Translations under genes and position numbers: made by a program
Origin: Tetraselmis striata
Taxonomy: Eukaryota > Chlorophyta > Chlorodendrophyceae > Chlorodendrales > Chlorodendraceae
Assembly (NCBI GenBank): GCA_006384855.1
Contig: VCJN01001679.1
Coordinates: forward strand, 62,001 to 126,000
Reading direction: 5' to 3'
DNA length: 64,000 bases
The notes under the pieces: generated by a model
The model's database searches: none
Told to the model about the DNA's origin: nothing
The model's input: the letters and a program-made list of their open reading frames with translations, nothing else
Shown here: one piece after another, positions 33,601-62,712 of the stretch
How the letters are laid out: every line of letters begins with the position of its first letter
Numbering within the stretch: position 1 is the stretch's first letter

Positions 33601-33624
33601 GCAACCCGGGTCAGTGACACAGCA

Positions 33625-34333
33625 ATGCGATCAACATTAAGGTTGCCGCCTCGTCGGTTAATTGCCACGCGTTTCGGTCCCTGCGGCCTAACTTTTGTGT
33701 GTGGTGGGAGGAGATATAATGCATGCGACCCACTCGTTCACACACATGACTTGAAGACGGCCCTCATTGACAGCCATAAGACGCAAATCGTTGGGATGAA
33801 ATCGAGGATAAAGTCATGCTGGTTCAAAGATAAGCCATGGGACGAGACTCAGAGACTGCGTCCAGATTACTTCGAGAAGTGGCCGGGTCTACCCCCGCCA
33901 ATGACTATGGAAGAGGAGCGGGAAGCGAGTGTAGCGACAAAGAAGAGAAGATTCAAGGCGGCAAAGCGCCAAGGGGATTATGTGGTCATCGACCATATAT
34001 TTGTGATATATATGATATATGATATGTATATATGATGTTATTTTGTAGTACACTGTTCCACGTAATTAGCCTTCTTGAGCCGTTCGTATATTTTGTCCCA
34101 GCTTGGACGGAGTTTCAGCAGCCCCCAACGGCACAAACTACTTGTAACCATCACGACCCCCTCACCCTTATGTTTTGTCCCAGCTTACAGAATTCCTATC
34201 CCGGCTTGGCACAAATGAACCAACTTACCGCATTAAGAATGATTAGCTCCCATTGTTGGCCTTGAACTCCAATTTAGACCTAATAACCACAATGCACCGC
34301 GTGCCTAGGTGCAAAGTAGGTTGCTTTACTGTT
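33625..34333 (-). mobile_element. Truncated second copy of the nested DNA transposon
   Basis: The right edge, read on the minus strand, starts AACAGTAAAGCAACCTACTT and continues GGCACGCGGTGCATTGTGGTT, matching the left terminus of the element at 41163. Plus-strand 33742-33990 encodes LKTALIDSHKTQIVGMKSR, WFKDKPWDETQRLRPD and FEKWPGLP. These match the last exon of that element's minus-strand gene (41811-41512). TTTGTCCCAGC motifs are also shared. The other end and the rest of the element are missing. Confidence 0.82.
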
Positions 34334-36498: not shown

Positions 36499-36924
36499 TG
36501 TTAGGGTTACCACCATAACCCTGCTTGCATACCTATACCCACACACTTATACCGCCATACTCATACCACCCACTCCCTTATACTAACACAAGAACACGCA
36601 ACCAAGCTGCCCATCCGCCCATACATATGTTTGACACGTGCTCGCCACATGCTTACCACGTGCCTTCCACATGCTTGCCACATGCCTGTCACATGCTTAC
36701 CACATGCTCGCCACGTGCCATGCTTTCACCAGCCATGACAACCCGATGACCCCCTGATGACAACAAGCCTAGATTGCATACATGAACCCAAATGCCTACA
36801 TGCAAACCGACTGCCAAACGGATGGTAGTACAAAGCCGTGTATGCCTTTGTTATTTATGTAACAATTTCCTTTGCTGCAAACCTTCTCCTTGTCAATGCT
36901 AAAGTCTTTCGTCTAAAGCTTACA
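36499..36924 (+). repeat. 5' LTR
   Basis: 426 bp, TGTTAGGGTTACC ... AAAGCTTACA. Contains internal CCACATGC/CCACGTGC repeats (36640-36725). Closely matched by 48815-49238. Confidence 0.95.
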
Positions 36925-38946: not shown

Positions 38947-41161
38947 GCTAGAGTCCAAAGCTAAGTCATATATACCCAATAAGACCTTTAAGAAAACCCA
39001 CCAACCCCGTTTTGAAACTGATAAAGCTTTCATAACATCAATGTCCGGTCACGACTTACTATTGCTAAAATCCAAACTACCCGACCACCCAGATTTACCC
39101 CGCTCGCTATGCTCCTAGATTCCGGCGCTACCCTGTGTTTTATTGACGAGGCCTTCGTCCGCCTGCACACATTTAATACCGCACCGCTACAAAATAAAAT
39201 ACGTATTGTTATGGCGGGCGGCCGTATGACACTAGCATCACAATCCTGCACATTACGACTCGACATAAATGGATATCAAGCAAACGTTGACTTTATTATA
39301 ACCTCCTTCGACGCCGTCCTCGGCCTTTCCTTTATTTCTCAAAAACCATAACCCAAATATTAATTGGACCAACGGTTCGCTTACGTTCTCCGACGGACAC
39401 ACCATGACATGCCCTACTGAACCTCGCTCAAACAACGTCGACGTAGTTCACGCCAACACTATGGCTCGTGAGATCTTAAAAAAGATCCCAACACAGTGTT
39501 CTTTTGTGCCGTGCTGCGCGAGTACGATGCCACGGAACACACTACTGCCCTTTCCGTAGATAATGATATAGCCAGTATTACTACCGACCAGTCTGCCGAA
39601 TATACCCAAGAAATCCGTTCCCTCCTACTTAAACACAAAAGTATTTGCCAACTATTGGACTGCCTCCCGCAACCCCGCCCGGGCTTTGATTTCGAAATAC
39701 CCCTACTCCCCGATGCCCATGTACCACCCGGCAAAATATATTGCCTATCCCCTGCCGAGTTGGATGAGTTGAAAAAGCAGTTAAATGACTTTCTAGACAA
39801 AGGCTTTATTCGAGAGTCGTTCTCACCTTACGCTGCACCCGTCTTGTTCGCCCGAAAGGGCAATGGTGGCCTGCGCATGTGCATTGATTATTGCCAACTA
39901 AATAAATAAACGCGCCGAATAGAATTCCCAATTCCACACGCTGACATGCTGCTAGATATTGCTCTCCGGCGATGCAGTTTACTCAGCTCTTGACCTTGCC
40001 CTAGGTTATCATCAACTCCGTATCAAAGACTCCGACGTTCAGAAAACATCGTTTAAAACTCAGTTCGGCCAGTTCGAATTTCTGGTTATGCCATTCGGCC
40101 TGTCTAATGCCCCCTCGGCGTTCAAACGGTGGATGAATAACGTCCTTCAACCGCACAAAAACACATTTATCCTTGTTTATCTTGACGATGTACTAGTATT
40201 TAGCAACTCACTCGATGACGATTTGATACACCTTGATGCCACACTCAGCCTCCTCGCCAAGAAAGACATACGGCTGCGATTGCCCAAATGCTTCTTCGCC
40301 AAAAATGAGCTGGAATATTTAGATCACATGGTTCGCCAACATGGCACACGTCCTTCCGAAAATAAAATTGCTGCAGTTCGGGACTGGGCCCCGCCTAAAA
40401 CCGTACAACAAATAAAACAATTCCTTGAATTCTGCATTTTTTTTCGCAAAAATGTCCACAAATGTTCCCACATGGCGGCCCCTCTCTATGATATTTGCCG
40501 TAAGACTAAAAACTTTACTTTTGGGGGGGACGCGAGCATGTCACCTTTAATGCTCTTAAACAATCATTATGTTCGGCCCCGGTCTTAATGACTCCTAAAA
40601 CAGGCCCAGACGCCGAGTTTGTAGTCTCGACAGATGCTTCGAAATATGCCATGGGCGCAGTCTTACTGCAGAAGGACTCCGCCGGCCATCTCAGACCATG
40701 TGCTTACTATGCTAAAGTTTTACAACCTGCCCATACTCGATACCCCACCTATGATCAAGAACTTTTAGGTGTAGTCAGCGCATTAAACAAATGGCGCTCC
40801 TATATCGAAGGCAGCGGCCGCATAACAGTCATCACCGACCACGCAACACTCCGCCACTTACCCGATCAACCCGCACTATACCGCCGCCACTCCCTATGGC
40901 TTAGCGTTATTTCCCCATACCTTGCTAATCACCCCCGCACCGGTAAACCCGTCCTACAAATATTATATCGCAAAGGATCCCAAAATAAAGCTGATGCCAT
41001 GTCCCGCCGTCCGGACTTACACCATGCCGTTAACTGAACACGACACCCAACTTCTTGATAAAGATCTGGAGGACACGCATGATTTCCTCTCAACCATGTG
41101 CCACCTACAAGTTAATCCTGAATTACTTGTTCGCATCCGCCACGCCTACATACACAACTGA
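38920..41161 (+). pseudogene. pol N-terminal part: protease, reverse transcriptase, RNase H (broken)
   Basis: Protease at 39109-39348: LLDSGATLCFID with the D-S-G active site and VLGLSFI near the end. RT begins 39496 with RESFSPYAAPVLFARKGNGG and LRMCIDYCQLNK, then meets TAA at 39907. It resumes at 39959 with YSALDLALGYHQLRI, FEFLVMPFGLSNAPSAFKRW and the catalytic LVYLDDVLVFS. A G-run at about 40529 shifts the frame. RNase H follows (40588-41037) with FVVSTDASKYAMGAVLL, TDHATLRHL and KADAMSRRPD. The frame then runs into the nested transposon at 41163. All family motifs are present, but stops and two or more shifts interrupt the polyprotein. Confidence 0.9.
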
Positions 41162-41162
41162 C

Positions 41163-41192
41163 AACGGTAATGCAACCTATTTCGCACCGAGG
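41163..41192 (+). repeat. Left terminal inverted repeat of nested transposon
   Basis: Starts AACGGTAATGCAACCTATTT, then GCACCGAGG. It runs into a hairpin-capable GCACCGAGGCACGCGGTGC. The same sequence occurs inverted at the end of the truncated copy (34333). Confidence 0.85.
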
Positions 41193-41511
41193 CACGCGGT
41201 GCATTGTGGTTAGGCCTAAATTAGGGTTTGGGGCGGCAGTGGGATTGAAAGCTAATATGAATGCCGGTTGGTTCATTTTGTACCAAGTCGGGGAAACCAA
41301 TTCCGTCCAAACAGGGACAAATCAAAAGAGTGAAGGAAACGGGATGGTTACAAGAAGTTTGCGCCATCGGGGCTGAAACTCTGTCTAAACTGGGACAAAA
41401 AAAAAGTGCGGGGGCCGTGCGTGATGGCTACAAGTAGTTTGTGCCGTCCGGGGCTGAAACTCTGTCAAAGCCGGGACAAAACATATGAGCGGCAAATTTT
41501 GCGGAATTGTA

Positions 41512-44298
41512 CTACATATCGTCATCTTCGATCACGTAATCCCCTCGGCGCTCTGCCGCCTCTTGCCTCCTCTTCTCCGCCGTTGCACGCTCTGCCCGCT
41601 CCTCTCCCTCGGTCATTGGAAAGGGTAGACCCGGCCACTTCTCGAAGTCATCTGGACGCAGTCTTTGAGTCTCGTCCCATGGCTTCTCTTTAAACCATGA
41701 GGTCATCCTGGATTTCATCCCAGCGATTTGCGTCTTCTGGTTGTCAATGAGGATCGTCTTCAAGTTCCTATGTGTGAACGAGTAGCTCGGATGCATATGG
41801 TCCCACCACACGGAAAAGGCCGCAGCGACCTAGAAAAGGCGTGGCAAACCGCACAAGGCGTTAATTTTTAATGTTGATCCCATTAAGTCACTCACCCGGG
41901 TTGCACCCCTCACGCACCGCGGTTGTCCCGGTTCCGGCTGCGACGTCGACGATTGTTGTCCCGTCTGTTGCCGCCATCTTTAGGTGCTTGGCGAAGAGAG
42001 CGATAGGCTTTTGGTACTTGTTCACCGTCTGTATGTTCTCGTCCTTCAATTTCGCGGTGTCTTTGAAGTGACCCAGCATAATGGATGTAGAGAACCTGGA
42101 AAGGCACAACCGGCTCAGGGAGTGATGATAAATACAAGCCGGCTACTTTACACAAATCTCACCTTCGGGGATCATCGAAACGGATGTTGTCAGCTATAAT
42201 GCTTGGCGGGGGCTTTGTGACGTAGAGGTAGTACTCAGCGTCGTGACGCAGAGAACTCCCCATCTTCATCCCGCAATCCTTGGCCCAAGTCAGGACGTGA
42301 TAGATGAGGTCCTCAGCTTGTTTTTGTACGGCTGTGATTGCGGATCCAAGTTGCTGGTCCGAGAGGTGATGAAGAAATGGCACCCATCAAGAGCAGTGTG
42401 GACGTCAGAAGATCCAGTCAGGATATTCAACTGCCTGCGCGGGGAAAATCGGAAATCAGCCGAATGAAAACACAGCCATCTACGCACCCGGGTTGTGCGG
42501 GGTATCTTGCTTGCCTGGCGAAAGCAAACACGTCGTTGAAGTCGTCCGTGCCCCGCGCAGCATCCTTCGAGTCCCAGGTGTGCGAACCAGCTCCGAAAAG
42601 CGCGTCGGCAATGTAGACTGTGGCCTTTCTGGCACGAACTGCCGACATGGCGTCCGCGACGGCTTGTTTTGTCGCGGGAGCCTTAAGTCCCCCTCCACAA
42701 TGCAAGTCTTGCAAAGCTCCGCGTTCAACCAGACCTTATCATCCTTGTCGACCTCTTCGCCCTTGGACATCACCGGAAGTTCCTCGGCCTGTGCGTATTA
42801 GAAAACAGATTCGGGTTAATAGCTCACAATGAAAATTCAGAAGAGCATTTGTGGTTGCACAAGATCTTAGTTACCTTCATCGATATCCACAGCTTATTAG
42901 AAACATTCGGAGCGGAAACCGCGATAAGCTCCGGAGCACATGCTAGAAGAGCAAACTCTGCGAAGAAGGAGATCACCAAGTCCGGCATATGATTCTTGAT
43001 GCGATACGCCTCACTCCTGATGTTGGTGTTGGTGGCCGCGATATGCTCTCGAACCGGTAGTGGTGTGAGACAATCGGCGGATTTCATGTCCCTCCATCTG
43101 GCAGGAGGGGTCAGCAAGACCATCAAAGGACCGGAGCGATGAGCACCTTTGAACAAATCCCGGAACTTTCCGGGGAAGCCTGTTGGGCCGAGGTCATCAA
43201 CCTTGGCTCGGAACTTGGTGATGGCGTCAAGGCGAGCGGCCGCTTGCTGGTCCGACACTTCGTCTTCCACACCCCATTCGATGATGTGGTCCGAGAGATA
43301 TTTCCCCCAGTTCCTGGCCGGTTCGTCTGGCGTCAGCATTCGGATGGCCTCTATGCCCTTGGCCGTGTCAATGGCATTCATGACCTTGATGCTTGCTCGA
43401 CGCAAGAGATCGCGAAACCTCCAGGTCTCAATCATCGCGAGCCACTCCGCGTTGGTGTGCGTAACAGCCATGGGGTCTTTGTCGCCGGCATGCTTTATGT
43501 CATCCACCAACTCGTAGAGGCTCGGGGTCACATTGTGCTCGCCTTGGATAAGCAGTCCAACCACCAGGTACATTTGGCCCACAGGAAGATCCGCGCTGTC
43601 GCTCTGCTTGGCAAGAGATGGCTCGTCTAGCCATGGCGCATGGGGTCCAAAGCCAACATCCTGGGTCGAAAAACAAACTTCAGTACGGAGAAAGGAATGA
43701 TAGTATTCCATGTGATTAATAGCCATTGGGTTAGGTCACAACTTACATCCATGAGGGCGACTCGGAAGTGAGCTCTGTCTTTGCCGAAGCCATACTTCTT
43801 GTTATCGAGGATTGCATTGATAGGATTCCGAATTGCTTCGTAAACCTTCCTCACTTCCTTCGGGGAGAGTTGCCTGCCATAATTGAGACGCTCTAGTCTA
43901 TCGAGTTCTTGCTGGTAGTACACAAATAGGTCTCCGAGTTTGGTTCTGGCTTCGTCCCATCCTCGAACCCCGAGGTCCACATGGCGGTAGGCTTCAGAAA
44001 TCTGCTCAAGGGGCTCAAAAACACTGCGCAAATCATTTGTCAGAATCTAGCAGCATTAACAAGAAGATAAATTTTCATCATGTACTCAGCTTACCGTTGT
44101 GGGCGCGAGCAGAGGTCAAGCAAATTTGAGAACTCGCTGCTCTTCTCATCTTTAATGCCGATCTTCTCTAGTTCAACATGAAGAACTTCAGACTTCTTGA
44201 ACTCCTTCACGACTCTAATTTGCGGAAGTGCCCTAAAGCCGGGGCGAGTTGCAGCCTGATCTGCATACCAGCTCTCGAAACATATGCGACGGTAGGTT
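41512..44298 (-). pseudogene. Beta-class DNA amino-methyltransferase-like gene (multi-exon, frame-broken)
   Basis: Minus-strand exons by GT/AG and phase: 44298-44095, 44023-43747, 43660-42875, 42788-42488, 42434-42163, about 42096-41896, about 41829-41512. The N-terminal ~420 residues (TYRRICFESWYADQ ... DVGFGPHAPWLDEP ... LTPPARWRDMKSAD) are not recognised. The C-terminal part follows the beta-class N4/N6 order: ATVYIADALFGAGSHTWD in the motif IV position (DPPY replaced by DALF), DGCHFFIT, LTWAKDCGMKMGSSLRHDAE, YYLYVTKPPP, then NKYQKPIALFAKHL and motif I TIVDVAAGTGTTAV. The last exon WFKEKPWDETQRLRPDDFEK is conserved in the 33.7-kb copy. Frameshifts at a G-run near 42690 and within DGCHFFIT break it. 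With motif IV altered, activity is doubtful; a DNA-binding role is an alternative. Confidence 0.6.
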
Positions 44299-44339
44299 CT
44301 GCAAAAACAGTTGCACCGATTTCAAATAAACCGTACGAT

Positions 44340-44735
44340 TATGTACCTCTATGACATACCGTTTCGTCCCGCTTATGACAAACTAATTCGTCCCGCTGAT
44401 GACAGACCGTTTCTTCCCGCTATCGCCATAACGTTTAGTCCCACTGATGCCGGACCGATTTCGTCCCACTGATGACAGAACGTTTCGCACCGCTTATGGC
44501 ATACCGTTTCGTCCCACCGACCACAAAACCATTTGTCCCACATAACTGGCCGATATCGTCCCACTGATGACAGAACGTTTTGTCCCACTGGTGAGAGACG
44601 GTTTTGTCCCACTGATGACATACCGTTTCGTCACACTGATGACAGACCGTTTCGTCCTGCTGATTACAGAAACATTCACCCACTATCGATATAATTATTT
44701 CGACCCACTTTAGACCGAACTTTTTCTGTCTCACT
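44340..44735. repeat. Tandem array of ~24-bp units between the two transposon genes
   Basis: About 15 degenerate units of the form TTTCGTCCCACTGATGACAG followed by ACCG. It fills the space between the 5' side of the minus-strand gene and the first visible plus-strand exon. TGTCCCA/TGGGACA words also occur near both ends of the element and in the intron at 46390-46470. Confidence 0.85.
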
Positions 44736-44775
44736 TATTTGTATACCGACCTATTCTGCCCCTGCCGCTTTGTAG

Positions 44776-47038
44776 ATTTGGCTACCGAGAGCGAAGCGAC
44801 GCTCGCATCGTTCGACACTTTCCGCCGGACTTGGAAGGAAGACTTCCCGGATGTCACCACGCCAAAGGTGAAGCGGTTCAGCCACTGTCCCATTTGCGCG
44901 GCGGGCAAAGCACTCAGAGACCAAGCTCGCGAGATTTGCACAAAGGACATGACGCCAGAGGAACGTCAAGTGCACCGTCAACATCAGCAGCTGGTGAGGC
45001 GTCAGGTCAGAGCTGAGCAGAACGTACACCTCGAGAGAGTGCGCCAGGAACGAAGGGATCTGAACAACGCCGTCTTCCAGTCGCGCCTTGGCCATGGAAA
45101 CTTCTTCTTCTTCGAAATTGATAGCATTGACTCCGCGAAGACCCTGCTGCCTCACCTGGGTTCGCTTCCCCAAGACTGTGAAGCCCGACATGCTCCTCAA
45201 GTACCACCTCACCTGTGTGAAGTACGACGGATACCGCCCGGACGACTTCTACTACTACACCAACACCATCCCCCACGATTCGTCCACGACGTGCACTCTA
45301 ATATGGATCACGATCATGAAGGTGAGCTCGTTAGTCTCCCGATAGATTCGCCGTGGTTGTCCGGTAGCCATGGATTGATGAAATCTGATCTGCGATGCAG
45401 GAAATTCAACACCGTGGTAGAAAGATTCCGTACATCAGAATCCAGATGGACAACACCGTCAGGGAGAACAAGAATAGGAACGTGGCGGCCCTCTGCAATT
45501 GGCTTGTGTCTATCGGCATCTGCGACGTCATTCATTTGGTCTTCCTGCCTATCGGGCACACTCACGAACGGGTTGACTAGATCTTCGGCCGCATCAGTCT
45601 TGCGCTATCTCGCAGCTCCGCCTACCCAATCGAGGCCTTTCTTGACTTGGTGGCGAAGGCATTCTCGCCCACTCCGGAGATTGCTGAGCTCTCATTCTCC
45701 CTCGACTCCTCTGAGTGGTTAAGGCCCCATTTTCAAGACCACATTCAGGACATCAGCAAGCCGCACAAATTTGAGTTCACCCGTGACGACGCCGCCGCGT
45801 CCGGCGGCTCGTTGCGCACCGCCTTGTGGTCCAACACACCGCTTTCTGAGCCCGTGCAGATCTTGAAGAGCGCGCCAACTGGGACGCCCGAGATTCGTAT
45901 GGGCCGGCCCCTTTTGTACGCGCTTTGCGACAAAAGGAAGCCCGACGCGGTGAAGGTCCAGAGGTACTTGGATGACTTCAAGAAGGTCAGGTCGTACATC
46001 ACGGACCTTGCGGTCCAGTGGCACGTCTCCCCAGTCGAGCGCGAGAGCTGGAAGAACCTGCTCGACGACTTGGATGAGATGCAAACTGCTCCTTCGGCAG
46101 CTTTCTCCGGGTTATGGCCGCAGCGGAAGGAGGAAGTTGACGACTTCTTGCGCGAGCACGGGCAGACCGCGCCCGCTGAGGCACGTCACACGATGGCTAC
46201 CAACGCAGACCTCAACAATGCCGAAGCCGCTCGCGTTGAAGCCGAGGTTCGTGCTCAAGTGCTTCAAGATGACAGCACCTTCCGGGGAGTTCATGCCGGC
46301 GCCAAGGAGAGGCTTCATGACAACACATCGCCCAGCGATGCAAAGGGCTCGAACCTCCTTGTCATCGACGTCTCCGATGTGAGTCCCATTGTTTGCCATT
46401 TTTGTCCTTTACGGGACAAAACAATTTGGTTCATCTACCGTGCTTGTTATTTTGTCCCAACTGGGACAGAAATGGCGTGGCGTCTCGCTCGGGACTAACA
46501 TACCTCGCGGCCTTGGCCATCATTAGGTGCATGAGGAAGACAAGTGCCCTGAAACTCTTGGTGATTGGGAGTCGAGATTCGTCATCGGGCTTGTGAAGTC
46601 GCGCGAGACTACCGAAGACACGTTGACCGTGGCTGTATATGAGCCTTTCCATGCGGATGCAAAGGGCAAACCTCTCATGCCCCTATGGTTGTACGCGCAG
46701 ACAAAAGGAGGGAAGAAGCCAGTTGACACAAGTGCCTGACGCTTCCTTGGAAGCTTGTTGAAGCCGTCCCCCTATCGTACGCGAAGGCCATCCACGACGC
46801 GTCGGGAAGTCGCGAGGCGTTCAAGGAAGACGGCACCATGGTCAGAAAGAAGTGGTACGGTAAAAGCGTCCAAGTCGTGAAGACATATGCGCAAACTGGG
46901 TGGCAAATCAGCCAGCCACGAAACAACTGCGTCCACGTCATGTCAACCACCCCAGCGCAACGCAAACCCGGCGGAGTCGTCAAGTTTAACGCAGCCACGA
47001 AGAAGTACTTGCTTGAGTTGGGGATGCTCAACGAATAA
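44776..47038 (+). pseudogene. DUF7869-like probable transposase (multi-exon, frame-broken)
   Basis: Exons: 44776-45321, 45401-46380, 46527-47038. Start: DLATESEATLASFDTFRRTW, then a Cys pair FSHCPICAAG, a charged coiled-coil-like stretch (MTPEERQVHRQHQQL), IDSAKTLLPHLGSLP, YRPDDFYYYTNTIPHDSS, and IQMDNTVRENKNRN with FLPIGHTHERVD. The last pair is the hallmark I associate with DUF7869-type proteins of mobile elements: an Asp-Asn with ENKN, then GHTHE-x-x-D. That D...D layout inside a TIR element suggests a DDE-like transposase, which is inference. Defects: a frame shift near 45170, a TAG right after GHTHERVD (family usually Q, so CAG to TAG), and a shift near 46738. C-terminus LLELGMLNE. Exons 5' of the array are not visible. 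Confidence 0.65.
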
Positions 47039-47293
47039 ACTGTTAGCAACGTCTTGTGGCTAGCCGGTGGATGTAATCATCATTATAAATGTTGATTTGC
47101 CTCACCTTGTCCCATTTTGGACAAAATGCTCCAAAACCAACATTGGATATGCGTCGCGGCTGGCCTGCACACTGATGAATGCTGCACTGCACCCTAGGTC
47201 TACAAACCCAAGCAACACCACCCGTGAGTCTTAAGTACTGATAGTAGACCCGGGAACTAGGGTATAAACAAACCCTACGGTGCAAAATGAATT

Positions 47294-47323
47294 CCACGGT
47301 GCAAAATAGGTTAAATTACTGTT
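47294..47323 (-). repeat. Right terminal inverted repeat of nested transposon
   Basis: Reverse complement begins AACAGTAATTTAACCTATTT, then GCACCGTGG. A second GCACCG word lies just inside (47273-47285). Confidence 0.85.
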
Positions 47324-47327
47324 TGAC

Positions 47328-48814
47328 GCAAATTATTATGGCAGTCGCATTCCCGTTGGCGTTACGTTCGATACCAACGACAATTTGTATTGGATGTCTG
47401 ATAAGGTCTGCTTGCCAACGTCGGATGAAACCCTGCTTAACTTAATTATCCAAGAATTCCACGACGCGGCCGGTCACCCCGATGCATAACGCACGCTCGC
47501 CAACATCTCTAAAACATTCTGGTGGCCCCACATGCGCAAAACCATAAAAATTTACTGCCGCACCTGCCCGACCTGCCAGCGCATTAAAAATTCCACCCAA
47601 CGCCCCATGGGCTCTTTGTCGCCCCTACCCAAAGGCACACGACCCTGGGAAGTTATTTCCATGGACTTTATCACCGGCCTCCCTGCGCAAAATGGCTTCG
47701 ACACTATCGCCACATTTGTCTGCACTTTTACTAAACAAGCCAACTTCATTCCATGCAGTATTCATATAGACGCCCCCCAACTCGCCCGCTTGTTTATCGA
47801 TAACATTTTTCGCCACCACGGCCTTTGCCACACCGTAATATCTGACCGCGACCCCCGCTTCACCTCCACCTTCTGGAAAAATCTGTTCCGATCTTTACGT
47901 ACGAAATTAAATATCAGTTCCTCATACCACCCCTAAACAGACGGACAAACCGAACGTACGCACCGCACCATTGAACAAATCCTCCGCTCTGTCGTGCACC
48001 AAAACCACACGGAATGGCTCCATAATTTGTCTCTCGCCGAATTCAGTTATAACAACGTCTATCACTCCGCAATTAAACGCACCCCGTTCGAGGCATGCTA
48101 CGGCATAACCTGCTTATACCCGCAAACCTCTTGTTTCAACCGGTCGACCCCGCGAATCACATTGATATCGTTCCACGTATACAACATACCCATCCCGTGA
48201 TCACAGAAGAACTAAAACTCGCCGACGCATACCAAGTGGCATATGCCAACCGTAGAACTCGCCCCGACGAATTCACCGAGGGCGACGGAGTGTGGTTTCC
48301 CACACAACACCTCCTGCTTCGCAACCAACGAGTTCGCAAATTCCGCCAACGTTACATCGGCCCGTATCCCGTCGTCCGCAAAATTCCCTCGCATGCCTAG
48401 CAACTTCGCTTGCCCCCAAGCATGGCCTGCCACCCCGTGTTCCACATTTCTCGCCTGCTCCGCTATGAATCCCAGACAATCCCGCCGATAACATACCTGG
48501 CCGCATTGAGCCCCCACAAGACGAATATATCGTCGATGCCATTCGCGACCATCGCATTGACCAACACTCGCCACACCATGCCCGCGGCCCTGCCTTAGTT
48601 TTTCTTGTGCATTGGTCCGGCTACGACGATTCCCACGACTCATGGGAACCCTACGTCAACCTCAAAAATGTCGATATGTTGCATGTCTATGCCCGTAACA
48701 CACCTTCCCTCCGCCTTATGCTTACGCAACCTGATTATCATATCATGTCTGCCAAATACCCCGCCCGCTTCCTTTACGTATCCCGTAAGGCTACCTTTTT
48801 GGGCCGGGATGGAA
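47328..48814 (+). pseudogene. pol C-terminal part: integrase and chromodomain (broken)
   Basis: Inserts the cDNA. HHCC zinc domain: EFHDAAGHPDA, a TAA at 47487, then TFWWPHMRKTIKIYCRTCPT and CQRIKN. Catalytic core: VISMDFITGLP (first D), VISDRDPRFTSTFW (second D), and TDGQTERTHRTIEQ (E). The Gln expected before TDGQTE (HPQTDG) is TAA here. C-terminus: RQRYIGPYPVVRKI, HPVFHISRLLRY, then a chromodomain FLVHWSGYDDSHDSWEPYVN after a frame change. The chromodomain places the element among chromoviruses, which target histone marks. TAA stops and frame changes make it inactive. Confidence 0.9.
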
Positions 48815-49238
48815 TGTTAGGGCTACCACCAAAACCCTGCCTACATACCTATACCCACACACCTATACCGCCATACTCATACCACTCACTCCCTTATACT
48901 AACACAAGAACACGCAACCAAGCTGCCCATCCGCCCATACATATGTTTGCCACATGCTCGCCACATGCTTAACACGTGCCTCCCACATGCTTGCCACATG
49001 CCTGTCACATGCTTGCCACATGCCCGCCACGTGCCATGCTTTCACCAGCCATGACAACCCGATGACCCCCTGATGACAACAAGCCTAGATTGCATACATG
49101 AACCCAAATGCCTACATGCAAACCGACTGCCAAACGGATGGTAGTACAAAGCCGTGTATGCCTTGGCATAATGTAACAATTTCCTTTGCTGCAAACCTTC
49201 TCCTCGTCAATGCTAAAGTCTCTCGCCTAAAGCTTACA
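48815..49238 (+). repeat. 3' LTR
   Basis: 424 bp, TGTTAGGGCTACC ... AAAGCTTACA. It differs from the 5' LTR by scattered substitutions and a few small indels, so the insertion is not brand new. AGCCG follows immediately. Confidence 0.95.
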
Positions 49239-60800: not shown

Positions 60801-62712
60801 TGCATTTATTTCCTTTGCTGTTTTCGTTCCTTGCTTCCTGTGCCTGGGCACCGACTGTTACTCGTCCGTTGCGTAGTCGCTATACGGTAACTGCATTTGC
60901 CTCCACACTCCCCTTTCTCCCTTGTGAGCCCGCTCACGCTCGCCGCCCCCCTTGCTACGTGCTCCAACCCTTCCCCCTCCGCCAACGAGAAGTTGCACGC
61001 CCAGCTACTCTTGAGCTCCGCGATGTTGTAGTTATTGCAACTGCAATCGACATGGTTCTTCGCGCGGAACTCGTCGATGTAGAGCTCGGTCCTCATGAAG
61101 TAACTCGTCCGCCTCTCGTAATAAAGCGTCGTTGTGCGGTAGGTTACACCTTCGGGTCGGGCCGGCACATGTGCGCCTAATATGACTGAATAAAGCGGCA
61201 CGCAACAACAGCGAAGTGGTGACAATTCATTCCCCCACCCCCACGCCCGCCGTGCCGCAGGTGACGTCCATCGCGATGTCGCACGACGGGAAGTGCGTGC
61301 TGGCGGGCTGCCTCGACTCGACGGTGCGCCTGCTGGACCGCGGCGCGGGCGACCTGCTGGCGTCGTACACCGGGCACCGGCACGAGTCGATCAAGATGGA
61401 CTGCGCCTTCACGCCCAGTGACGAATTCGTGCTGTGCGGCTCCGAGGACGGTGCGGGCGCGTACACACCTGGGCGAAACCTTTGCGGGGAGCGGGGGGGG
61501 GGGGGGGGGGGGCGGTTCCCACCGACTTGGTCACGTACTTCCAGGCGTCCCAGGCGGCATATTCGTCGGAACAATCATTGTTACCAGGTTACATCTGGAA
61601 ATACGTGGTGTGATGTCCATTGTCACAGATATATTTACACAACTCGTCAGAAGCATTCGCGTTCCGTACCTTTCGTTTGCGTCTGTTCATTTGCGGCGGT
61701 GCGTCGTCACCACCTCGCGCCAGCTTTAGACGGCATTGCCGTCGTACGTCGTGTCGAGGGTTGCATAATAGGTAGGGGTGCCCTGCTCCACGTGTGCACG
61801 TGCGGATACGCTCGAACGCCCCGTGGTCGTCACATTGTCGTCACCTGAAACGCGTACTCAACGAGGGCTCTCGGTGTCCCTGCCGTGAGACCCGGGTACT
61901 TAAGCTGACTGGGGCCTTTATTGGATCCTGCTGGTTCGTCCTTCCGGTCGGGCGACTACTCCTTACTCGTCGGCCCGCGCCCAGTGCTGCGCATGAGCCC
62001 TTTGGGGTTGGAATGAGGCGCTGGTCGAAATCGGCTAGGCCCAACCTCGGGTGGACGGCGTCTATGGAGGGTTGCACGTGCCCTAGGTCACGATCGGGAC
62101 AACGAGGTCCCGGCCCTGGTCCGGGGGTACTTTTCTTTTATGAGCGAGTCACAGTGTCAGCTGACTCCACAAATCACCAAACTCTGCGAGGCCGGAACAA
62201 TGTACATCTCTCTTTTTCTCTCCCTCTCTCACACTCTATCTTGTTGTCGGAATCCGCCCCATTTCCAGAGGGGCATATCGTAACATTTAATTGGGTTCGA
62301 GGGTCAAAGCGTCAGTGAATGGCTTTTGCGGCGCCGATTCGGAAAATCCGTGTCGCGTTCGTAATGGGTTTTGCGTATGTCGGGATGAATATGGTGTTCT
62401 CTTCTGGGGGTGGCCCAACGACGACGCCGAGAGCCCAACGTTGTAGTTCCGGTACATGTGGGCGCACAGTATTGCGGGATGACAACTAGCAGACTCACCC
62501 CCCCCCCCCCCCCCAACACACACACACACACCCACCCAAACCATCCCGTCACCCTCACGACAGGGCGCATCTTCGTGTGGGACTTGGTGGAGGAGACCGT
62601 GGTGAAGCGCATCGACGCCCACAGCGGCGTGGTCTGCTCGCTGGCGATGCACCCCACCGGCGACTGCCTGCTCTCCTCCTCCACCGACGGCACCGTCTCC
62701 GTGTGGCGATAG
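57862..62712 (+). CDS. WDR83: WDR83/MORG1-like WD40 repeat protein
   Basis: A seven-bladed WD40 scaffold. The animal orthologue organises MAPK signalling and also associates with the spliceosome. Six exons in phase: 57862-58011, 58208-58255, 58733-58891, 60086-60322, 61261-61450, 62564-62712, 310 residues (human 315). Nearly every WD repeat of the family is visible: VRFNRAGTYCLTCGKDRTLR then LWNPHKG; TYTGHGYDVRDVAV; CGGDRQVFQWDVASGRIIRK; SGGYDKCVKVWDCRARNF; DILAGSVDGTVRRFDVRVG; LAGCLDSTVRLLDRGAGDLL; CGSEDGRIFVWDLVEE; STDGTVSVWR then TAG. TYSGHGYEV and SVDGRVRRYDLRMG of the animal protein have direct counterparts. The start ATG heads a short Ala/Pro-rich leader. Introns 1 and 4 begin GTGC followed by long C runs; intron 5 has a G run. 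No upstream exon is needed. Confidence 0.93.
59530..59880 (+). repeat. Short direct duplication in WDR83 intron 3
   Basis: GGCTTGCCTGTGCCCTGCCA at about 59533 and GCTTGCCTGTGCCCTTCCAT at about 59756. Each is followed by TTGGGTCCGCRCRTCCCAA and, further on, by GTCAGAA with ACATC. Degenerate, noncoding. Confidence 0.6.

Follow-up and report, generated by a model that had tools for sequence, protein, structure and literature searches.

The DNA analysed here is a 64,000-nucleotide stretch of the chlorodendrophyte green alga Tetraselmis striata (the window: contig VCJN01001679.1, C1357 in our numbering, positions 62,001 to 126,000), and positions 41163-47323 of this window are a real DNA-transposon insertion. 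Comparison with longer relatives in the 224-Mb genome, in which the genome-wide searches were made, shows that this copy is an internally deleted derivative of a family of about 13 kb. We favour, with moderate confidence, the reading that this family combines a DDE transposase carrying the DUF7869 domain with a divergently encoded methyltransferase-like protein that would act on the element's own DNA.

The two ends of the element (41163-41192 and 47294-47323) form a 30-nt inverted repeat that is 83% complementary, as expected from the original prediction, made from the sequence alone, of matched termini of about 30 bp. The flanks read ..caacTGAC|AACGG on the left and CTGTT|TGACgcaa on the right. 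When they were rejoined over a single TGAC, the junction was spanned in 40 of 40 genomic matches (the best 40 of 73 candidates). Two copies of this empty site were read base by base: each has a single CGAC, and a 4-bp gap in these two copies lies 8 bases upstream of the junction and not at the junction itself. Since the empty site holds a single 4-bp repeat and the element is flanked by TGAC on both sides, it was inserted with a 4-bp target-site duplication (TSD), and the TGAC duplication proposed earlier is confirmed. The flanking open reading frames (ORFs) at 40510-41037 and 47310-47936 are two parts of one polyprotein, which we take from its motifs to be Ty3-like; the element sits inside this retrotransposon, other copies of which show the empty site.

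The organisation of the family (A) was read from a copy on contig C1430 (301335-314242), which is 12.9 kb long and contains two intron-rich genes that diverge from the centre towards the ends. Its left terminus is followed by methyltransferase exons 15 to 9, which are read leftward, and then by array 1, exons 8-2 and array 2. Methyltransferase exon 1 and a short stretch without coding sequence come next, and beyond them lie transposase exon 1 (read rightward), array 3, the other transposase exons (2-4) and the right terminus. The transposase gene has GT-AG introns and is spliced to a stop-free protein of 991 amino acids (aa); in the methyltransferase gene of this copy the frame is shifted in exon 6, a region that stays open in the public models P0058, P0063 and P0064. 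The arrays, all three intronic in our splice model, are built from a 24-bp unit (e.g. CGTTTCGTCCCACTGATGACAAAC); array 2 has 26 copies of it and array 3 has 30, while array 1 is divided between two loci. The window copy has a single array of 13.3 units, the left side of which aligns with array 1 and the right side with array 3; this suggests that recombination between the intronic arrays removed about 6.7 kb. Compared with C1430, transposase exon 1 and methyltransferase exons 1-8 are missing. Thus, the 6.16-kb form, originally taken for the whole element, is a deletion derivative; the two gene blocks described on opposite strands are present with their introns, but both are truncated and frame-broken in this copy. 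Its parts are listed below, with exon numbers from our splice model of the C1430 copy; exons were located by comparison with C1430 and by their ORFs, plus the evidence given in each line.

41163..47323, plus strand: whole element, internally deleted, non-autonomous derivative of a DUF7869/methyltransferase transposon of about 13 kb (terminal inverted repeats, TSD, longer relatives, empty site)
41159..41162, no strand: TSD TGAC, left copy (flank reading, empty site)
41163..41192, plus strand: left terminal inverted repeat, AACGGTAATGCAACC... (inverted-repeat comparison; left terminus in 23 of 24 copies checked)
41512..41829, minus strand: methyltransferase-gene exon 15, the last one, with the remainder of the motif I region and an acidic tail
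41918..42095, minus strand: methyltransferase-gene exon 14, QKP and motif I VDVAAGTGTTA (also profile search)
42163..42434, minus strand: methyltransferase-gene exon 13, W-x-K and YYLYV, 5' boundary uncertain, frame broken
42488..42788, minus strand: methyltransferase-gene exon 12, motif-IV-like IADALFG, frame broken (also alignment)
42875..43660, minus strand: methyltransferase-gene exon 11, with the LLTPPARW stretch
43747..44023, minus strand: methyltransferase-gene exon 10
44095..44298, minus strand: methyltransferase-gene exon 9, the first exon kept in this copy
44351..44670, no strand: 24-bp tandem array, putative deletion junction (aligns with array 1 on the left and array 3 on the right)
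44776..45321, plus strand: transposase exon 2, CxxC motif and region of the first conserved Asp, frame broken
45401..46378, plus strand: transposase exon 3, which holds the DUF7869 core including DN..ENKN and GHTHE (also profile match); an in-frame stop lies behind HTHERVD at about 45578
46527..47038, plus strand: transposase exon 4, C-terminal part, frame broken
47294..47323, minus strand: right terminal inverted repeat, ...GGTTAAATTACTGTT (inverted-repeat comparison; both-end reading of copies)
47324..47327, no strand: TSD TGAC, right copy (flank reading)
33601..34333, minus strand: left end of a diverged copy, retaining its terminus and the last methyltransferase exon (sequence comparison with the element)

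In order to survey the pairing, one exon of each gene served as a query against the genome, and the best 150 of 419 (transposase) and of 431 (methyltransferase) candidates were scored. Among these 150+150 matches, 77 pairs (involving 76 transposase matches) lie within 16 kb in the divergent arrangement of the window copy, and 2 in another arrangement. The spacing is 9.1-10.0 kb in 49 of the 77; that of the window pair, 3.2 kb, is the shortest. Adjacent public gene numbers show the same pairing (e.g. TSEL_018301/018302 and TSEL_043409/043410). The view that the methyltransferase-like gene belongs to the element, first based on a truncated copy at 33.7 kb, is borne out by these pairs, and the truncated copy itself does keep the last methyltransferase exon in readable form; its pieces are 72-79% identical to the element, with 35 of 40 positions of the left terminus matching at 34333.

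The internal content was then assessed in 20 of 40 right-end matches (the window copy is among the 40), of which three ending at a contig end were left out. Both transposase parts are present in 14 of the remaining 17 copies, and 11 of these 14 also contain the sequence of the methyltransferase exon 2-8 block (L012, L013 and L023 do not). In one copy with both termini, L022 (C1792, 1286-6176), the interior is replaced by about 4.9 kb matching no C1430 segment. Copies L014, L015 and L016 share one flank and L012 and L013 another, although they are on different contigs, which suggests uncollapsed haplotypes or duplicated contigs. Both ends were read in C1792 and in 23 of the 77 pairs, including the window copy, which makes 24 copies; C1496, lacking the left terminus, was dropped from the TSD count. 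An exact 4-bp TSD, with a chance of 1/256 for each copy, was found in 15 of the 23 copies, the duplication is one base off in C889, and there is no match in 7. The duplicated sequence varies between copies, with a mild A/T preference (examples are tgac, gtac, acgt and ttgc). By this anatomy, movement through a DDE transposase making 4-bp staggered cuts is well supported.

The assignment of the ENKN/GHTHE exon to DUF7869 was correct: in the window copy this exon matches PF25273 with an E value of 2.3e-17 (63.7 bits) and the following piece with 2.1e-8, and the C1430 protein belongs to the family with 147.8 bits against a curated cut-off of 26. Among public proteins, Tetstr1/TSEL gene models come closest, with 97-99% identity along most of the query; in a third search, made with an alignment, all proteins returned were from mussels. 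In line with the earlier proposal of a probable transposase, the modelled core has a predicted RNase-H/integrase topology, in which three conserved acidic residues, one at the end of each of strands 1 and 4 and a third on the final helix, would occupy the positions of the D-D-E triad. The best 50 matches in the structural comparison are all retroviral integrases, Mos1 transposase or Argonautes; Foldseek gave no match at E<=0.001 in the PDB or the viral library, and a sequence search against solved structures gave no useful match. With this moderate support for the RNase H fold, DUF7869 is likely the DDE-type transposase of the element, and this domain of unknown function gains a likely role.

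For the second gene, the window exon matches PF01555 with an E value of 1.7e-4 and 22 bits, below the cut-off of 26.7, which is exceeded by the C1430 protein with 28.6 bits (the query includes about 34 residues of uncertain coding status). PF01555 is also precomputed for P0058, P0060, P0064 and P0124, 4 of the 80 proteins found, all of which are Tetstr1 models except P0100 (metagenome, 92%), and a phage methyltransferase family matches P0058 with 4.8e-7. Judged by the profile matches above the Pfam cut-off, the C-terminus is a predicted N6/N4 DNA-methyltransferase-like domain. The order in family A is motif IV region, W-x-K, QKP and motif I (DVTAGTGTTAV), which we take to be that of the beta class of amino-methyltransferases. 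To this extent the original class assignment stands, but not for the catalytic motif: the canonical motif IV is [DNS]PP[YFW], and the aligned position reads DALF in 11 of 12 rows of one alignment (A1; the twelfth, P0135, diverges there), and in the 15 rows of another (A4) the D, A and L are invariant and the F nearly so. Exon 11 contains another PP site without an aromatic residue, LLTPPARW (LLDPPARW in P0063), which is spliced out in some public models. Public models of this protein reach about 1,000 aa and our exon count implies a longer one; its AlphaFold model (pLDDT, the predicted local distance difference test, 29.8) was too low to use. For the N-terminal part, a family B piece (see below) weakly matches phrog_1033 ParB (E 0.11) and no Pfam match was obtained; PF02195 has 4 matches in the genome, none at the element loci listed. 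No close prokaryotic source of the methyltransferase was confirmed in two prokaryote contig scans, which needed short near-exact peptides and which distant relatives may escape, and the phage records gave one match, to the motif I region only. A viral origin was also considered and set aside, as viral-contig scans with the transposase alignment and three methyltransferase queries gave no confirmed relative, with distant ones again liable to escape.

The genome search with PF01555 revealed a second repeated methyltransferase family (B), which scores 38.0 bits, above the cut-off, and is 29% identical to the family A domain from the motif IV region to motif I (E 1e-16). Motif I GTGTTAV and W-x-K are retained in both families, while motif IV reads SNYG in L071 (B), TNYG in L089 (C) and TKYG in L090. 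Among 26 picked DUF7869 loci of family B, about 52-54% identical to P0048, 8 have a methyltransferase gene on the same contig, divergent in all 8, at 9.5-11.7 kb in six and at 20 and 24 kb in the others. Family B termini start with AACA and end with GTT; four copies have both ends, one with an exact 4-bp repeat and one with a single mismatch. Family C (the P0048 family, 24 loci) gave no partner at first search; when the search was widened, weak methyltransferase matches appeared on two of its contigs, in divergent position in both cases and at distances of about 10-11 and 15-17 kb, and the one gene read has motif IV TNYG and stop codons. Taken together, a check of 85 transposase rows against 80 methyltransferase rows gives, for these two families, pairs within 25 kb on 10 contigs, 10 of 10 divergent. 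Tandem arrays of 24-25 bp were seen in the gene regions of families A (L024, 3287-3909 and 5840-6570) and B (L074, 4386-4688 and 6556-6829), the 25-bp unit of B being unlike that of A.

Selection was estimated as the ratio of nonsynonymous to synonymous substitution rates (dN/dS) against the C1430 copy, some loci being duplicates of one insertion. For the transposase, dN/dS was 0.16-0.36 in 12 comparisons (more than 600 codons, dS >0.05) and 0.46-0.61 in the three closest ones (dS 0.013-0.033); for the methyltransferase it was 0.39, 0.46 and 0.53 in three comparisons of more than 300 codons. In the window/C1430 pair the methyltransferase has 0.46 versus 0.23 for the transposase, and 47 of its 127 changes are synonymous, where a share of 26% was assumed under neutrality (binomial p 0.004). 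Both genes thus appear to be kept by selection, the methyltransferase-like gene more loosely.

Given the observed anatomy, abundance, pairing, TSDs, empty site and dN/dS below 1 for both genes in the longer comparisons, we propose that the DUF7869 protein would recognise the AACRGTAAT termini and, with little preference for particular target sequences, insert the element where it makes staggered cuts of 4 bp. The second gene, read in the opposite direction from the same central region and possibly from a shared promoter, would yield a large protein with the C-terminal N6/N4 methyltransferase-like domain, which may methylate or bind element DNA and so control transposition or help the element to avoid silencing by the host. 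The window copy has lost its middle, probably by recombination between arrays, and is non-autonomous. The fixed head-to-head layout points to a second gene that is of use to the element, as opposed to a chance passenger. Most of the outcomes named in the original prediction as its refutation did not occur: there are 77 divergent pairs, the TSDs are exact in 15 of 23 copies, and the transposase model has RNase H topology. The proposal has several weak points. The motif IV variants DALF, SNYG and TNYG depart from the canonical motif and therefore make catalysis uncertain; the exon 12/13 boundary is unsettled, public models skipping a stretch whose family B counterpart codes; and the duplicated contigs mean that independent insertions are fewer than the match counts. 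Most family B and C loci have no partner on the contig, and the B/C pair on C1302, at 52 kb, is not divergent. Finally, dN/dS was 0.09-1.04 in three short transposase comparisons and 0.14-0.99 in five shorter methyltransferase comparisons.

The alternative of an ordinary Sola-superfamily (Sola2-like) transposon with an unremarkable extra gene comes close to an even chance. As described in passages of PMC3627910, Sola2-type elements have 4-bp TSDs and an 888-aa transposase, which the TSD length and size here would fit; this likeness is one of TSD and protein size and not of transposase sequence, and the TSDs in that description are AT-rich, unlike tgac, gtac, acgt and ttgc.

The second protein could instead be a catalytically dead methyltransferase fold serving as a DNA-binding or S-adenosylmethionine (SAM)-sensing partner of the transposase, which we consider a plausible, if not the leading, explanation. 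It would account for the non-canonical motif IV of all three families alongside the motif I and W-x-K kept in A and B; on the other hand, some enzymes may tolerate an unusual motif IV, the PP site of exon 11 is a possible alternative in family A, and in a dead enzyme one would expect motif I, the SAM site, to have drifted. The reading of the second protein as an enzyme or as self-marking is tentative, and equally doubtful is the larger view that the DUF7869 transposons of this alga are an unnamed superfamily or major clade whose ancestral, functional and divergent amino-methyltransferase, with its non-canonical motif IV, would write or read the element's own N6-adenine or N4-cytosine mark and thereby control its movement or let it avoid silencing.

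It is rather unlikely that the methyltransferase-like gene is a captured passenger without a role in transposition, riding on the element's success. Its higher dN/dS, its degenerate motif IV and the lack of a partner on the contig at most family B and C loci would agree with this, but its dN/dS is below 1 in the longer comparisons and the divergent placement recurs where the partner genes are only about 30% identical. Since a divergent second gene recurs in diverged families, a role in the element's life is the better bet. That DUF7869 is not the transposase and the element is moved in trans is very improbable: the assignment does rest on moderate fold support, but no other nuclease-like gene was recognised in the element, and the best structural matches of DUF7869 are as given above.

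Some further observations concern the surroundings. Direct repeats of about 426 bp, 95% identical, at 36499-36924 and 48815-49238, bracket the Ty3-like host sequence and are likely its long terminal repeats. The window element has 10 occurrences of the motif TTTYGTCC[CA], of which five lie outside the array; the rest of the 64 kb has 3, 2 of these within the 33.7-kb fragment; by these raw counts, which carry no chance expectation, it may be a putative binding site. The paralogues L088 (C1117) and L091 (C2214), with other motif IV variants lacking the aromatic PP motif, have no DUF7869 among the matches listed on their contigs and could be host genes or further families. L072 (C1010) is a bacterial-looking, intronless DPPY methyltransferase on a contig with a ParB match at C1010:88683-88991, possibly bacterial contamination of the assembly.

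Why unrelated mobile elements took up DNA-methylation enzymes is an open question. The pairing described here looks old, being common to diverged families, it is abundant (at least 150 matches per exon), and it is recent enough to have left many open reading frames in an alga, so that it becomes testable whether a transposon modifies its own DNA and whether this helps it to move or to hide. In the literature searched, from which most subscription papers are absent, there was no report of DUF7869 paired with a methyltransferase, and none of the papers searched named DUF7869; by term search, the main text of a survey of eukaryotic adenine methylation (PMC12695648) names neither Tetraselmis nor PF01555. 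The original statement that no named superfamily combines this pairing with a 4-bp TSD agrees, for the pairing, with the literature searched, but the 4-bp TSD is known from Sola2 in the sections cited of PMC3627910.

Among known systems, DUF7869 proteins of Mytilus and other contigs (P0050-P0057) share the PF25273 domain and the acidic residues, but their identity in the aligned part is 24-31%. Going by TSD and protein size, the closest superfamily is Sola, a matter of description and not of sequence comparison: Sola2 elements share the 4-bp TSD, terminal inverted repeats and a transposase of about 890 aa and, according to the part of PMC3627910 on them, may carry an extra Fanzor1, whereas here the TSDs are not AT-restricted and the partner is methyltransferase-like and divergent. 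The virus-integrated Mariner elements of the same source likewise have a methyltransferase beside the transposase, but with a Mariner transposase, TA target sites, Methyltransf_26/C5 cytosine domains and an extra nuclease gene. Fungal TET/JBP transposons, as outlined in PMC12730594, show a DNA-modification enzyme carried by several DNA-transposon superfamilies, although it is another enzyme, for methylcytosine oxidation, in other hosts. Dinoflagellate and charophyte elements with captured cytosine methyltransferases are also selfish elements with their own DNA methyltransferase, but they are retrotransposons and the enzymes are of the C5 type (PMC5890265, in its account of these elements). The element is, therefore, best read as a DUF7869 transposon with an accessory methyltransferase-like protein, in which the pairing appears new, while the carrying of DNA-modifying genes is known from other elements.
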